From a virus, in IMG/VR virus record IMGVR_UViG_3300048777_000051, positions 1 to 39,892 of that record: DNA of 39,892 nt. One strand, 5' to 3'. Under the pieces are notes generated by a model. It was not told the DNA's origin and did not search any database. It worked only from the letters and a program-made list of their open reading frames with translations. Below, in pieces: positions 1,915 through 39,892 of the stretch. Position 1 is the first letter of the stretch; each line of letters opens with the position of its first letter. Both the position numbers and the translations under genes were made by a program.

Positions 1915-2190
1915 TCAGCGCTCTGAGGGAGACCTGTCCCCCCTTAGAACATTGCTTATCCCTCAAGGTATTGCCAACCGAGTTTTACGCAATACTGGAA
2001 GATAAGCGCATAGGCCGACTTGCACCAAGTCGTAGGTTGCACGCTATGTCCTGGTTAATGCCAGCGTAGTCTAGATGTGTAACCGTTAAGAAAGTCCTAT
2101 GCCGCAGCCGTAAAAACAGCGTAATGTTTAGAACGGTAAGCGACTCGGAGGGTTGGAATAATAGTCGGTGTAGGCTACCAACCCTGCTTT
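1915..2190 (+). ncRNA. candidate structured noncoding RNA
   Basis: No convincing gene lies here, but six consecutive stems can be read: 1922-1929 with 1941-1948; a two-part arm 1954-1960/2001-2007 enclosing 1968-1974/1989-1995; 2009-2013/2044-2048 enclosing a perfect 6-bp hairpin 2016-2021/2027-2032; 2051-2054/2061-2064; 2082-2087/2132-2137; and a terminal 8-bp stem 2149-2156/2178-2185 followed by GCTTTTAT, terminator-like on the plus strand. The density and nesting suggest a folded RNA of roughly 270 nt. I cannot assign it to a known class; group I intron, RNase P and tmRNA signatures were not found. Confidence 0.5.
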
Positions 2191-2201
2191 TATAAAAAGA
2201 G

Positions 2202-2375: not shown

Positions 2376-2977
2376 TTCCAGCAAGAGCTCGAACTTGACC
2401 ACGCCCGCAAGCCACTAGAGTTGTATTCAATTAAAGCCCTCTGGTCTTGTATCGCTGGAGGCGCTTCGTATGCACGAGCATAGCCACCAAAATTATTCCA
2501 AGTACTATCCAAAAACTGAAAAGCCCCAGAAGCGCTACTAACCTTACTAACACGTGTGTAATCATTTCCACTCTCGCATTGTTTTATTTTAGCAAAAATT
2601 GGTGGTAGCGTATAGGCAGAGCTATTTTGTACCGTCACAAAACTCTCTGCATTAGCCTGCTTAACCGCAGGCTTTTGTAATACCCCTAAGTTACCGTTAG
2701 AACTGGCTGCTGTGAGAGCTTTTTGCTTCGCAATGGCCTCTTGCTGGGCTTGGTACTCACTTTGAGTTATTTTAATAGAAACTGTATTTCTGACAGGTTC
2801 ACAAATTTGAACATTAAGGCAACTAATTGAACCAACTAATTGACTTTGGCTAGAAGATGGCAACGAATTACCAGAATTCCCGGTAGATACGTCAGAACCC
2901 ACTAACGTAACAGACTGGCCGTAAGTCGAGGGTACAAGTATAAATGCGAGCAGGATTGCTAAGAGTATAAACTTCAA
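2372..2977 (-). CDS. secreted Rpf/transglycosylase-like endolysin
   Basis: A 201-residue protein with an N-terminal signal peptide (KFILLAILLAFILVP, likely cut near residue 20), a Ser/Gln-rich linker and a C-terminal transglycosylase-like domain at about 124-201. That domain has the IKQCESGNDY motif, with probable catalytic Glu135, plus SGAFQFLDSTW and a final Cys that could bond Cys134. Such domains cleave the glycan strand of peptidoglycan and are typical of Actinobacteria and their phages and of Saccharibacteria. The only start is TTG at 2977, with GGA eight bases upstream. It ends the lysis cluster and would act outside the membrane. Confidence 0.8.
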   Translation of the reverse strand: MKFILLAILLAFILVPSTYGQSVTLVGSDVSTGNSGNSLPSSSQSQLVGSISCLNVQICEPVRNTVSIKITQSEYQAQQEAIAKQKALTAASSNGNLGVLQKPAVKQANAESFVTVQNSSAYTLPPIFAKIKQCESGNDYTRVSKVSSASGAFQFLDSTWNNFGGYARAYEAPPAIQDQRALIEYNSSGLRAWSSSSSCWN

Positions 2978-3114
2978 GGGATTCCAGAGTACACAGGATA
3001 GACAGAGTGGGTGTGGTGCTTCGTTTTTAAGTCGTTTTATCGACTCCTTTAACTTGCATGACCTAGCTAGCGTAGCGTGTTTTGTTATAAATTTCTAGAT
3101 TTTGTCAAGTAATA

Positions 3115-3145
3115 AGCCCCCACTTCTTTGTAAGAAATGAGGGCT
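3115..3145 (-). terminator. hairpin, possible terminator
   Basis: AGCCC (3115-3119) pairs with GGGCT (3141-3145), and TTCTT with AAGAA inside. On the minus strand the stem is followed by TTATTACTT, a weak U-tract, so it may end transcription of the zinc-ribbon gene. A TTGACA lies just beyond it (minus, 3103-3108), but the nearest TATAAC is only 13 bases away, so I do not call a promoter. Confidence 0.4.
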
Positions 3146-3212
3146 GTTATGATTGTCACCGCAAGTCGTATTAGTCCATGAGCATCAAATCATTCAAAGG
3201 CGTGATCTCCTT

Positions 3213-3491
3213 TCATTGAGATACCTTCTCATAGTAGCCATCAGGCAGTCTTAGTTGGTTTAAGTCTGGTAATGGCTTGCGCTCAAGTTTTAGAGTTCCT
3301 GTGTATTTTATTCCACAGCTGATACATCTTAAATCAAGACAGGAAATGTCCAGGTGGACATAATCTTGACCCGATTCACGCAGAAGGGAGCTAATGAGCA
3401 AATCCCCTCCGCATTTATCGCAAGTAATATCAGACAAGAACACCTTCGTCTTTATATTGACGTGGATAGAAGCGATAGCTGTCGCAGACAT
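3213..3491 (-). CDS. zinc-ribbon hypothetical protein (92 aa)
   Basis: Contains CDKCGG near residue 24 and CISCG near residue 56, a four-cysteine zinc ribbon, and an acidic C-terminus. The start has an excellent Shine-Dalgarno (TTAGGAGGTTGCC before ATG). It lies between the lysis genes and the transglycosylase and is probably co-transcribed with the gene at 3532. No specific family recognised. Confidence 0.7.
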   Translation of the reverse strand: MSATAIASIHVNIKTKVFLSDITCDKCGGDLLISSLLRESGQDYVHLDISCLDLRCISCGIKYTGTLKLERKPLPDLNQLRLPDGYYEKVSQ

Positions 3492-3531
3492 GGCAACCTC
3501 CTAATGTGCTAGATAGTTTAATAATATACCA

Positions 3532-3852
3532 CTAATTGAAAGTTTCAATGATGGCTTCCCAACGGAACTTAGGCTTACGCCAGAGAATCAATTCCAGTCT
3601 ACCGCCAGCGTTAATCCACTCTCTGAGCAGTGGTTCTTCACGGATCTTTTTACGGTGGGCTGAAGCAGCGCCATAGGAAGTTGACTGGACTCCCAGGATC
3701 TCGCCGGGCTTGATAGCAATAAAATCAATGATATTGAACAGGTCATTAGTGACATGGATAGCAAAATTAGACCGCTCAACACAACCGATCGTATAACCGA
3801 GTGATCGGTAATACTTCATAGTCATCTGATTATAGGGCGGAATCCTCCTCAT
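3532..3852 (-). CDS. phage protein with PD-(D/E)XK-like fold, probably inactive or divergent
   Basis: The core LFNIIDFIAIKPGEILGVQSTSYG followed by an AHRKKI segment resembles small phage proteins with a restriction-endonuclease-like fold. An Asp sits in the first strand, but the usual (D/E)xK is replaced by QST, so catalysis is doubtful. The C-terminal strand is ELILWRKPKFRW. The frame is open from a GTG at 3867, inside the terminator flank; ATG 3852 and ATG 3825 are better starts, and the AGGAGG at 3849-3844 is badly spaced for both. Function unknown. Confidence 0.6.
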   Translation of the reverse strand: MRRIPPYNQMTMKYYRSLGYTIGCVERSNFAIHVTNDLFNIIDFIAIKPGEILGVQSTSYGAASAHRKKIREEPLLREWINAGGRLELILWRKPKFRWEAIIETFN

Positions 3853-3867
3853 ATATCCATAGTACAC

Positions 3868-3886
3868 AAAAAGCCCCGAAGGGCTA
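3868..3886 (-). terminator. rho-independent terminator of the lysis operon
   Basis: Read on the minus strand, AGCCC-TTCG-GGGCT is followed directly by TTTTTG (plus-strand A run 3868-3872). A UUCG tetraloop closing a GC stem before a U-tract is a classic intrinsic terminator. It lies just after the holin gene. Confidence 0.85.
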
Positions 3887-3912
3887 ATTATGACGAGTTG
3901 AAGACTTAACTA

Positions 3913-4287
3913 TTATAGGACTGGTTGATCAGTAGGAGCAACAGGATTACTCACAGGCTGAGCCACTGCAGTCTTCGTAGCAGCATTCTGTGCTGGTACG
4001 TTGATAATCTGGAGAGGTTTGAACCCTGTATTGAAGTCATGATACAGAATAGAAATGATCGTACAGGCAATAGACTTGATTAGGATAAAGGACGGGAACG
4101 TCCCTGACGTCGATACTAGGTAGACATCAACTGCTAAGGTAGCAACAAAGTTAAACAAGAATGTAATAAGAATAATCACGTAACCAGGTATCCTAGTCTT
4201 CGGATAACGTCCCTTGAACCACTGAACCAAACTACGAACAAAGACTCCGGTCGAAACGATCTGTGTTGGAATTGTAAATATGCCCAT
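3913..4287 (-). CDS. holin-like membrane protein
   Basis: A 124-residue protein with two to three hydrophobic segments (PGYVIILITFLFNFVATLAV near 40-59 and FILIKSIACTIISILY near 66-82) and a Pro/Ala-rich hydrophilic tail. It begins one base after the stop of the GH25 lysozyme, so the pair is a lysis cassette. By position and topology it should form the membrane lesion. The name rests on context rather than a recognised motif. Confidence 0.65.
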   Translation of the reverse strand: MGIFTIPTQIVSTGVFVRSLVQWFKGRYPKTRIPGYVIILITFLFNFVATLAVDVYLVSTSGTFPSFILIKSIACTIISILYHDFNTGFKPLQIINVPAQNAATKTAVAQPVSNPVAPTDQPVL

Positions 4288-4288
4288 G

Positions 4289-5263
4289 TTATATTTTCTC
4301 CTCTAGTTGTTTTATTATGAATTTTAATACACTCAAGACCCACTTTAGCAGTGACGAGTGATCAACGGAAGAGGAGGTTGGAAGGGTTGTTGGAGGGGTA
4401 CTTATAGCCTCCTCTGTTGCCGTTGGTTCACCCGGAGTCACTGCACCTACCGCTGGCGAAGTAACTTCGACAGGAGCGATAGTAGGTTCAACCTCAGGAG
4501 TAGCCGGGGTTTCATGCGTGTTATATGGCGGCACGTCCGAGATAGGCTCGGCCACTTCCGTTGGTTGCTCTGGGGTTAGTTCGGCCGTTATCTCAACTGG
4601 GGCTGGTATCGTTGGTTGTAATGGTTGAGCTGGCTGAGGTTTACCGTAGGCTTGGAACTGCGCTGCGTCACCAAAGAACAGATCGAGATCGACTGTGGTG
4701 GGAATACCACTTACTTGGCCTTTGTCTGAGTACTGCATAAACGCCGCCATCGGCCAGGGTTGACTGGTGTCGTATACGCCGTTATCGTTAAACGTCCATT
4801 CTGCTAACCATAGACCGTAGCCGGCGCTAATAACTGGTTGCCAATCGTGCGCCTTAGCTAGAGCAAGATTGATGTAAAGCAATGGTTTGAATCCTAGTAA
4901 TTGCTCAGCCTTGTTAAGCCACGCTAGACACCACGCCACTGAGTCGCCGTCATAGGCTTCCTCAAAGTCCAAGGCAACGATCTCACCGGGTTGGATATCG
5001 CTAAGGACACGGGCAACATACTCAGCCTCGGCTTCGGGCGTGTTGTACTGGGGGTAAGAGAAGTGATAGAAACCATGCAAGATACCAGAGTTTCTAGCCT
5101 CAGTCTTATTGGTTTCAAAATGGGGATCGAGATACTGGCTGTCTGGCTGACCCGGATCAGGGCAACCACCGCTAGATTTAATGATTGCGAAATCAACGTT
5201 GGACTTTAGAGTAGTCCAGTCGATAGTCCCTTGATATTCTGAACAGTCAATTCCCTTAAGCAT
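4289..5263 (-). CDS. GH25 muramidase endolysin
   Basis: Residues 1-205 are a glycoside hydrolase 25 domain: GIDCSEYQG with Asp6, and VALDFEE with Asp99 and Glu101, the usual catalytic residues, plus the LWLAEW segment. It cleaves the MurNAc-GlcNAc bond of peptidoglycan. A Pro/Thr/Glu-rich linker (about 205-300) leads to a hydrophobic and basic C-terminal helix (LLKWVLSVLKFIIKQLEEKI), perhaps a membrane or wall anchor in place of a repeat-type binding domain. No signal peptide, so release should depend on the downstream holin. Shine-Dalgarno AAGGAGG precedes the ATG. Confidence 0.9.
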   Translation of the reverse strand: MLKGIDCSEYQGTIDWTTLKSNVDFAIIKSSGGCPDPGQPDSQYLDPHFETNKTEARNSGILHGFYHFSYPQYNTPEAEAEYVARVLSDIQPGEIVALDFEEAYDGDSVAWCLAWLNKAEQLLGFKPLLYINLALAKAHDWQPVISAGYGLWLAEWTFNDNGVYDTSQPWPMAAFMQYSDKGQVSGIPTTVDLDLFFGDAAQFQAYGKPQPAQPLQPTIPAPVEITAELTPEQPTEVAEPISDVPPYNTHETPATPEVEPTIAPVEVTSPAVGAVTPGEPTATEEAISTPPTTLPTSSSVDHSSLLKWVLSVLKFIIKQLEEKI

Positions 5264-5285
5264 TTTCTACCTCCTTATTTATTTA

Positions 5286-5313
5286 ATTATGTACTCGGTA
5301 GCTACTTTGTCAA
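5286..5313 (-). promoter_or_regulatory. promoter for lysis genes
   Basis: Minus-strand -35 TTGACA (5308-5313), 16-base spacer and -10 CATAAT (5286-5291). The -10 lies inside a 22-base box (5275-5296) that recurs with two changes at 11410-11431, before the 394-residue virion protein gene. Confidence 0.6.
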
Positions 5314-15247: not shown

Positions 15248-15290
15248 TACTTTAAGAGTAGATATTTATCAACTTGTCAACTAGTTGAGA
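15248..15290 (-). promoter_or_regulatory. conserved late leader, copy 1
   Basis: Minus strand: the perfect palindrome TCAACTAGTTGA (15277-15288) overlaps TTGACA (complement 15275-15280), then ATAAATA and, 14 bases after TTGACA, TACTCT, then TAATG at the gene start. The same elements at identical spacing precede the gene ending at 26560. Spacing is too short for a standard sigma-70 promoter, so it may be a phage-specific promoter or leader. Confidence 0.5.
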
Positions 15291-15302
15291 GAGTGTAAAC
15301 AT

Positions 15303-26560: not shown

Positions 26561-26603
26561 TAAATCCAGAGTAACTATTTATGGAATTGTCAACTAGTTG
26601 AGA
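26561..26603 (-). promoter_or_regulatory. conserved late leader, copy 2
   Basis: The palindrome TCAACTAGTTGA (26590-26601) overlaps TTGACA (complement 26588-26593), then ATAAATA and TACTCT, ending in TAATG at the gene start. Each element is at exactly the same distance from the ATG as in copy 1 (28 bases from the start codon to TGTCAA on the plus strand). Confidence 0.5.
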
Positions 26604-26604
26604 G

Positions 26605-29750: not shown

Positions 29751-29971
29751 CATAGGCAAGTACTCAATAAAATTTGACCGTAGGCGATAGTTTATTAGTT
29801 AGGTGGGGGATTGTATCGGAAAGGAAGTTTAGGACGCGTAGTCGTCACACACGTTACAGTAGAATGAAGTGCACGCTTCCCCCAATCTTGAACCGAGTCG
29901 AACCTATTAGCCTATTAGCCGGGATCAAATTAACAGGTGCGCAGACTGTTTAATGTACGGATGGTTCATAC

Positions 29972-30002
29972 ATATTGTCTGACAATATACATTGTGCGAC
30001 AA
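29972..30002. promoter_or_regulatory. two operator-like dyads
   Basis: ATATTGTC-T-GACAATAT (29972-29988) is a perfect 8-base dyad. TTGTGCGACAA (29992-30002) has the same outer TTGT/GACAA half-sites. The centres are 17 bases apart, about 1.6 helical turns. A repressor or resolvase-type site is plausible, but no such protein is evident. Confidence 0.55.
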
Positions 30003-30060
30003 GATTAACAGAGTACGACCTATTCGAGGTTATAATTGTTCGGGTGGTTATCGGTTTTGT

Positions 30061-30102
30061 TCGGTTTGTTCGGGTAAAAAATCGGTTTGTTCGGGTAAAA
30101 AA
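30061..30102. repeat. tandem 21-base repeat
   Basis: Two exact copies of TCGGTTTGTTCGGGTAAAAA plus A, with degraded copies on each side (30036-30060 and 30103-30115). Followed by TTTTCCACA, a near DnaA box. It resembles iterons. Confidence 0.8.
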
Positions 30103-30238
30103 TGGGTAGTAAAAAAGTTTTCCACAGGGCGTTGAGTGTGTGTCAATTGCCACAATTTTCCTCCTACCCTAACCAGTCCGAACCAACATATTCACCAATT
30201 TCTAGTAGCATATACTATTGCAGGTTTACGTGGGGGGC

Positions 30239-30267
30239 TTGACAACCGCTCAACTAGCGCGTATTGT
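30239..30267 (+). promoter_or_regulatory. promoter for small-gene block 1
   Basis: -35 TTGACA (30239-30244), 17-base spacer, -10 TATTGT (30262-30267). TCAACTAG lies in the spacer at 30250-30257, five bases after the -35, exactly as at 37456. Transcription would start at about 30274, right at element A1. Confidence 0.75.
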
Positions 30268-30283
30268 AAATAGTGAATTAGCA

Positions 30284-30310
30284 CATTAACATCTCGGTGA
30301 TAACTTGAAA
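30284..30310 (+). repeat. block 1 upstream element (A1)
   Basis: CATTAACATCTCGGTGAT (30284-30301), then CTTGAAA (30304-30310). These complement ATCACCGAGATATTAATG (30998-31015) and TTTCAAG (30983-30989) downstream of the block: 17 of 18 and 7 of 7 pairs. Confidence 0.7.
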
Positions 30311-30324
30311 CTAGGAAACAAAAA

Positions 30325-33088: not shown

Positions 33089-34675
33089 ATGCCTGGTAAA
33101 TTATATAACGACATACTGTTTGGCAACGAAGCCACTAAAGAATTGCGCGAGGGTGTGCGTAAGATGGCGCAACTGGTTGGCACAACGCTCGGAGCTGGTG
33201 GACGTAACGTCATCTCTCAACGTGCCGGCGGCCAATCCCCGGAAGTAATTAATGACGGGGTAACGATTGCTCGCAACGTGGCGCGCTTACAGTTTGAGTA
33301 TCAAGATCTAGCTGCACAGATGATCAAAGACGCTTCAATACGTACCGTGGAGCTGGCTGGTGATGGTACAACAACGTCGATGGTACTAGCTGGCAAGATC
33401 GTTGAACTTGGCTTTGCCGAGATCGACAAAGGCTACAACGCCATGAAATTACGCCAGGAGATCGAAGAAGCAACTGGCAAGGTCGTTGAAGAGCTTCTCA
33501 AGATGGCCAAACCAATAAAGTCCCGGGAAGAGATCATACAAGTAGCGACTGTTAGCTCCGGTAGCGAGGAAGTGGCTAAATTAATCAATGAAGTACTCGA
33601 GAAGGTGGGTGACGATGGTGTGATCGCTGTCGAGCAAGATCTGTCTCTGAATAATTACAGCTACACCATCTCAGAGGGTATGGAATTTGATCGCGGTTGG
33701 CTGTCGCGCTCGTTTGTCAAAGATGAAGAGCGTCAGTCAGTAACTCTGTATAATCCTTATATCTTGATAGTGGATGGATCTTTGCGCTCGATCTCAGACA
33801 TACAACAGGCTTTGATGCTCGTTAACAACGCCCCGGACGGTGTGCGCGAGCTACTAGTGATTGCTGATCAAGTAACGGATGACGCGTTGCAAATCTTGGC
33901 GGTTAACGCTGGACACGCTGTTAAATGTGCGGCTATCCAATCACCAACCTACGGCGATCAACGTCATGACCACCTACAGGACATTGCTACAGCCACGGCT
34001 GCACAACTAATCGATCCAACTAAAAATCGTATGGACAAGATAACGATTGACGATCTTGGCCGGGCGAGAAAGGTTGTGGTTAGTAAGGCCAAAACTCAGA
34101 TCTTTGAGGGTCGTGGCGAACCTGATGAAATTGCCGAGCGCGCCGAGTTCATCCGTAAGCAAATGAAAAACGCTATTGCTGGCTATGAACAAGACAAACT
34201 GCAACAGCGCTTAGCTCAGTTGACAACTGGCATGGGTATTATCAGAGTCGGTGGTACGACCGAAACAGAGTCGCGCGAGCGCAAGTTACGTGTCGAGGAC
34301 GCCATTGAAGCCACTAAAGCCGCTATTGCCGAGGGAATTGTCGCCGGGGGAGGTGTAGCGCTCTACAACGCTGTTAATGTACTAGACAGAGATCAAAGCG
34401 TTGGAGGGGACGTCGTCTATGGCGCTTGCATTGAGCCACTCAGCCTAATCCTAGAGAATTCCGGTCAAGATATTGAGACTTTAACTACCCTAATGAGCAA
34501 AGATGACAGTAACCTTTATGGTCAAAATGTCGCTACAGGCGAGTTTGGCAATATGATCGATCTAGGTATCATCGATCCAGTCAAGGTCGTACGTAGCGCC
34601 CTGTCAAACGCCTCGGCAGTGGCTTCACAGCTACTCACCGCTGGCGCAGCAATAGTAGTTAAGGAGGAAAAGTAA
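33089..34675 (+). CDS. groEL: GroEL-like chaperonin
   Basis: A 528-residue group I chaperonin. The nucleotide-binding residues are present: NDGVTIA near 55, GDGTTT (91-96), RVEDA near 395 and VAGGGVALY. The usual TLGPKGRN phosphate loop is TLGAGGRN (33-40), losing Pro and Lys. The C-terminal GGM repeats are missing. Apical helices are conserved enough to bind a co-chaperonin. It sits in the middle-expression arm, far from GroES at 24030. AAAGGAGG is upstream. It probably folds phage capsid or tail proteins. Confidence 0.95.
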   Translation: MPGKLYNDILFGNEATKELREGVRKMAQLVGTTLGAGGRNVISQRAGGQSPEVINDGVTIARNVARLQFEYQDLAAQMIKDASIRTVELAGDGTTTSMVLAGKIVELGFAEIDKGYNAMKLRQEIEEATGKVVEELLKMAKPIKSREEIIQVATVSSGSEEVAKLINEVLEKVGDDGVIAVEQDLSLNNYSYTISEGMEFDRGWLSRSFVKDEERQSVTLYNPYILIVDGSLRSISDIQQALMLVNNAPDGVRELLVIADQVTDDALQILAVNAGHAVKCAAIQSPTYGDQRHDHLQDIATATAAQLIDPTKNRMDKITIDDLGRARKVVVSKAKTQIFEGRGEPDEIAERAEFIRKQMKNAIAGYEQDKLQQRLAQLTTGMGIIRVGGTTETESRERKLRVEDAIEATKAAIAEGIVAGGGVALYNAVNVLDRDQSVGGDVVYGACIEPLSLILENSGQDIETLTTLMSKDDSNLYGQNVATGEFGNMIDLGIIDPVKVVRSALSNASAVASQLLTAGAAIVVKEEK

Positions 34676-39511: not shown

Positions 39512-39853
39512 ATGGCAACAGAATACAAACTAACAAAAGAAGAATACGAGAAAGTTAAGCACCTGCTTAAGAAAGAGGCTATTAAGTACAACGCACTTGA
39601 CGATTTAGTCGGTGGAATTGTCTTTATTAGAACTGTCACCCACTACTTCACGGGTCGAGCAATAAACATAACGGGTGACTTTATTCACCTGGAAGACGCT
39701 GCCTGGATACCTGATACGGGTCGTTTCTATGAGTTCGTTAAAGGAACACCTAACGATTCGTTGGAAGTAGAACCAATTGGCACAACCTTTGTTGCTATTG
39801 GTTCTATTATCGAAATAATGCCCTATAGTAACTTGTTTACGGTTCAAAAATAA
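39512..39853 (+). CDS. hypothetical protein (113 aa)
   Basis: Helical N-terminus (TKEEYEKVKHLLKKEAIKYN), then beta segments VGGIVFIRTVTHYFTGRAINI, IHLEDAAWIPDTGRFYEF and FVAIGSIIEIMPYSN. The pattern resembles small beta-barrel proteins seen in other phages, of unknown role. It is the gene cut by the circle junction; its last 28 codons repeat at 1-84. Confidence 0.7.
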   Translation: MATEYKLTKEEYEKVKHLLKKEAIKYNALDDLVGGIVFIRTVTHYFTGRAINITGDFIHLEDAAWIPDTGRFYEFVKGTPNDSLEVEPIGTTFVAIGSIIEIMPYSNLFTVQK

Positions 39854-39892
39854 TGAACCAAGCAGTCGCTAGAACTGGCTGGGAAAGTTCGA

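Follow-up and report, generated by a model that had tools for sequence, protein, structure and literature searches.

A candidate structured noncoding RNA where the converging gene arms of a phage genome meet

Introduction

Near the beginning of the phage genome held in IMG/VR as record IMGVR_UViG_3300048777_000051 lies a gene-free stretch of about 270 bases in which an earlier note, made from the letters alone, saw a dense candidate structured RNA at the end of the plus-strand arm of genes. Is this stretch the gene for a discrete noncoding RNA, or is it the leader of the small gene that follows, the tail of the message that precedes it, a DNA element, or a noncoding sequence that folds well by accident? 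Here we analyse its predicted fold, its coding potential, its possible membership of known RNA families and its distribution among related genomes, and weigh these explanations against each other. The window refers throughout to the whole stretch of DNA analysed, that is, the complete record of 39,892 bases.

Results

The first 123 bases of the record are the same as the last 123 (a perfect direct repeat, 1-123 and 39770-39892), indicating that the phage genome is either circular as assembled or terminally redundant. Its genes are arranged in two arms. The plus arm runs on the plus strand from 28821 through the record end to 2375 and carries a replication initiator, GroEL, a glycosyltransferase, an Erf-like annealing protein, an exonuclease and small genes, and the minus arm runs on the minus strand from 28579 down to 2372 and carries the terminase, the structural genes, a GH25 endolysin and an Rpf-like transglycosylase. 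The candidate RNA sits where the converging arms meet, which is also a mosaic boundary. The Rpf-like transglycosylase hints at hosts of Actinomycetota or Saccharibacteria type, a suggestion for which there was no supporting genome match; genome contigs searched for phage relatives yielded distant GH25 enzymes only.

The plus strand of the candidate region folds better than any other plus-strand part of this genome. When 397 windows, each of 200 bases, were scanned for folding on both strands, with z taken relative to shuffles, the windows starting at 1901 and 2001, which cover the RNA, reached z values of -5.0 and -4.0 and ranked first and second of the 397 plus-strand windows. Positions 1909-2195 folded with -101.3 kcal/mol on the plus strand compared to -79.7 ± 4.8 kcal/mol in shuffles (z -4.49, with 0 of 200 shuffles folding equally well), whereas the minus strand was weaker (z -2.68). 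For the core of the RNA (1913-2146), z was -4.76 and the ensemble diversity was 17.8, as against 55.3 ± 16.3 in shuffles, a single one of which (of 400) was as uniform. G-U pairs number 10 in the best fold of the plus strand versus 5 in that of the minus strand, and this excess is consistent with an RNA read from the plus strand. The sequence is thus more stable and better defined than its shuffles and favours one strand, the pattern that we took to mark a structured noncoding RNA. These values confirm that the stretch is densely structured, as first proposed, and we conclude that the fold is real in the thermodynamic sense.

Five top-level stems are predicted in succession, most of them with nested stems and most helices with a mean pair probability of 0.9-1.0, so that the initial description of successive stems, several with nested inner stems, was right in substance. 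Four stem domains, all read on the plus strand, make up the core of about 234 nt, whose ends are possibly held together by 4 bp (1913-1916 with 2142-2145), although these closing pairs are weak (probability about 0.5). H1 (1922-1948) is an 8-bp hairpin with a mean pair probability of 0.98. H2 (1954-2007) consists of two stacked stems of 7 and 8 bp (mean pair probability 0.98-0.99 for both) beneath a 14-nt loop. H3 (2008-2102; 0.79-1.00) is a three-way junction, in which a closing stem (2008-2015 with 2094-2102) carries two inner arms (2016-2032 and 2035-2084) and unpaired GUUAAGAAA. H4 (2104-2141; 0.94-0.97 for the two main stems) is a hairpin with internal loops and the hexaloop GCGUAA. A kissing interaction between the H2 and H4 loops was considered and not adopted, as the loops strictly share 4 bp, or 6 if two stem pairs open. 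Directly 3' of the core, the terminator-like hairpin H5 (2147-2193, plus strand, stem 2149-2185; -18.7 to -19.8 kcal/mol) comprises an 8-bp stem followed by a U-rich tail, GCTTTTAT, in agreement with the 8-bp stem plus tail with which the earlier note closed the stretch. A consensus scan flagged a terminator-like site in the plus direction at H5, and in the predicted structure this hairpin likely sets the 3' end of the RNA.

Does the RNA belong to a known family? With membership defined as a covariance-model score at or above the gathering score of the family, 0 of the 4,227 families of Rfam 15, which include ROOL, GOLLD, RNase P, tmRNA, introns and riboswitches, matched anywhere in the window, and none reached E ≤ 10 in the region 1700-2400. 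When 1900-2200 was searched alone, a 22-nt fragment of the TPP family appeared at E 3, far under the gathering score, and is attributed to chance. ARAGORN predicted 0 tRNA or tmRNA genes in the window. The statement that the stretch resembles no tRNA, tmRNA, RNase P or group I intron is borne out by these searches, and the Rfam check recommended with it gave no credible match.

Nor does the stretch encode a protein. All six frames across the RNA have negative per-codon scores (-0.31 to -0.98, compared to 0.27 ± 0.08 for the long genes of this phage), and coding by a minus-strand ORF (1985-2353) was ruled out by its codon score of -0.28 over the RNA. The stretch is noncoding, and the gene-free reading of it holds, within the limits 1897-2213; the core starts 16 nt past the stop codon of the upstream gene. 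On the other side, 28 nt 3' of the H5 stem, the ORF list contains a 53-codon plus-strand ORF (2214-2375; codon score +0.05); its stop codon and that of the converging transglycosylase gene (2372) overlap. This ORF is probably a gene. Its hydrophobic product, for which no family match was found, would be a small membrane protein and its expression a possible target of cis control. The RNA is accordingly the penultimate feature of the plus arm; of the original reading the dense, strand-biased, well-defined, noncoding structure outside Rfam stands, whereas its placement at the end of the plus arm was slightly off.

Searches for relatives of the RNA itself recovered no homologue in 50,697 phage records, 72,556 plasmids or 5,426 E. 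coli genomes, and scanning IMG/VR with an exact 23-nt pattern from the RNA returned nothing. A 15-nt junction pattern was present in 17 IMG/VR contigs, whose flanks aligned no better or modestly better than shuffles (the best, L051, 20 versus 13); this word is readable there as ordinary codons, and the covariance model had no match in these contigs. In G016 and G002, blastn gave weak matches of 14-18 nt, which are ascribed to chance. A single-sequence covariance model, the sensitivity of which is only slightly above that of blastn, retrieved only the RNA itself from 62 sources (0.63 Mb) and nothing from 24 whole records or from 1,089 genomes of three phyla. The RNA is an orphan relative to the collections searched, from which the records closest to the window may be missing, and since there is no homologue there is no covariation.

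IMG/VR scans with six proteins (neighbours and hallmark genes) identified a single close relative, IMGVR_UViG_3300037150_000196 (L002). It aligns with 94.8% identity over 686-1776 and, in inverted order, with 99.3% over 2561-3153, and has no counterpart between the aligned parts for the segment of 784 bp (1777-2560, no strand assigned) that holds the RNA; blastn and the covariance model found no copy of the RNA in the whole L002 record. Because L002 aligns on both sides of 1777-2560 and not across it, we place the RNA in an exchangeable module. At the corresponding position, L002-L005 have structured windows whose sequences are unrelated to the RNA. The transglycosylase and endolysin genes beyond the module (2561-5289) share 95-99% DNA identity with those of L002, where they are oriented opposite to the early genes, with other genes between; judging from this pattern, the region appears to be a recent mosaic exchange with L002. 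The terminase and the replication initiator of this phage have no match in the L002 record, so L002 is a mosaic partner and not a sister, and the absence of the RNA from it does not by itself exclude a role in packaging or replication.

Several other features of the genome were recorded. A phage-encoded GroEL-like chaperonin (33089-34675; phrog_5725, E 4e-114) has at most about 40% identity to those in other phage records. A DNA methyltransferase-like ORF (phrog_111, 205-670), preceded on its 5' side by low-complexity units of GGTCGN type (120-185), ends shortly past seven consecutive Gs (532-538) and seemingly continues in another frame, which may reflect decay, phase variation or a sequencing error. 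A long GCGGCTNATGCGGCT-type array (1175-1375) gives the product of ORF 738-1469 an alanine-rich tail and differs in L002. On the minus strand, the genome folds most strongly in window 3101 (z -4.9), within a noncoding stretch (2978-3300) that is nearly identical in L002 and probably forms terminator or leader hairpins. In the plus arm, 574 bases without a good ORF (29751-30324) may be an origin or a second RNA, and both strands of the adjoining window at 29601 fold well (z about -3 and -4). Finally, a 37-bp direct repeat with 86% identity (15255-15291 and 26568-26604) lies between genes at two places in the minus arm and perhaps represents promoters or regulatory sites.

Discussion

Which explanation accounts best for this locus? 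On balance, we favour, with some reserve, the gene for a discrete accessory phage noncoding RNA, composed of a 234-nt core and its own terminator and probably acting in trans. The z values of -4.5 to -5, the plus-strand bias, the lack of coding signal, the terminator-like hairpin, the closeness of the core to the upstream stop and the exchangeable module all speak for such a gene and tip our judgement slightly towards it, having set against them the lack of a homologue and of a recognisable promoter of its own, as well as the order of RNA and small ORF, which fits a leader equally well. Our scan recorded no plus-strand sigma-70-type promoter near the RNA, and from this, together with the 16 nt that part the core from the upstream stop codon, we infer that the RNA would be transcribed from the plus strand as the tail of the plus-arm message; alternatively, it could be made from a type of promoter outside the coverage of the scan. 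Termination at the H5 hairpin would generate the 3' end, trimming of the plus-arm message might release the discrete RNA, and the folded product could then act in trans, for example through binding to a protein of the host or the phage. The four-domain fold with its uniform ensemble suggests an RNA that binds a protein or ligand, and speaks less for an antisense RNA.

The main rival to a trans-acting RNA, and one that the present data do not separate from it, is a leader that acts in cis, riboswitch-like or by protein binding, on the gene for the 53-aa membrane protein; transcription of this gene would be decided by the H5 terminator. We regard this as rather unlikely. The succession of core, terminator and ORF is that of terminating riboswitch-type leaders, and inspection by eye suggests a putative antiterminator, formed by CCAACC of the H2 loop (1974-1979) and the complementary GGUUGG on the 5' side of the H5 stem (2151-2156), but pairings of 6 nt are not uncommon by chance alone. 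Moreover, no Rfam riboswitch matched above chance, the ribosome site of the ORF is weak and far from its start codon, and a -10-like TATACT (2202-2207) hints that the ORF may have a transcription start of its own.

An improbable alternative is that the structure is merely the 3' untranslated tail of the plus-arm message, stabilising it and ending transcription with no separate RNA product. The site after the last sizeable early gene, the failure to find an own promoter and the terminator-like hairpin at the end would all suit such a tail, but a 234-nt structure with four domains and a uniform ensemble far exceeds the needs of a terminator, and L002 manages without the RNA. We consider it more doubtful still that inverted repeats of a DNA element (an origin, a packaging or a recombination site) or of a decayed mobile-element remnant fold incidentally at what is both the junction of the converging arms and a mosaic boundary, as the plus strand folds better than the minus strand and is richer in G-U pairs, of which DNA has no need, and no intron or other element family from Rfam matched. 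That a noncoding stretch folds this well by accident is very unlikely, for although there is neither homologue nor covariation and about 400 windows were compared on two strands, z values of -4.5 to -5 recurred in independent runs together with an unusually uniform ensemble.

We therefore return to the noncoding RNA gene: the locus offers a credible and new candidate for a phage noncoding RNA, known from a single instance. Should it prove real, this RNA belongs to no Rfam family, has no detectable relatives and comes from a poorly known phage lineage. Its orphan status makes it a candidate and not a class; that it might exemplify a new class of phage structured RNA, of about 234 nt plus terminator, carried on an accessory module and acting in trans, for example by protein binding or in host takeover, is a possibility that we put forward tentatively.

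How does the candidate compare with known systems? It shares with terminating riboswitch leaders the arrangement of a folded core, a terminator and a small gene, but no aptamer family is matched and no ligand-linked gene lies downstream here. The packaging RNA (pRNA) of phi29-type phages, of 100-200 nt, is likewise a structured phage RNA; in contrast to phi29, this phage has a terminase of the phrog_2 group, and Rfam gave no match to pRNA. Phage-encoded small regulatory RNAs fall in a size class of 50-550 nt and are mostly base-pairing regulators (PMC12197685). The candidate resembles them in size class and terminator hairpin and differs in that paired domains dominate, with few free stretches. 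ROOL and GOLLD are noncoding RNAs of phages and prophages, intricately folded and of unknown function; GOLLD members often exceed 800 nt, and both are often found near tRNA islands (PMC12286853). They are much larger than the 234-nt core, Rfam gave no match to either, and no tRNA was found in the window, but the likeness of an elaborately folded phage noncoding RNA remains. The nearest kind is thus the orphan structured RNAs of phages, of which ROOL and GOLLD are the best-known examples, and the candidate, if real, would enlarge this small group of elaborate phage RNAs whose roles are unknown.
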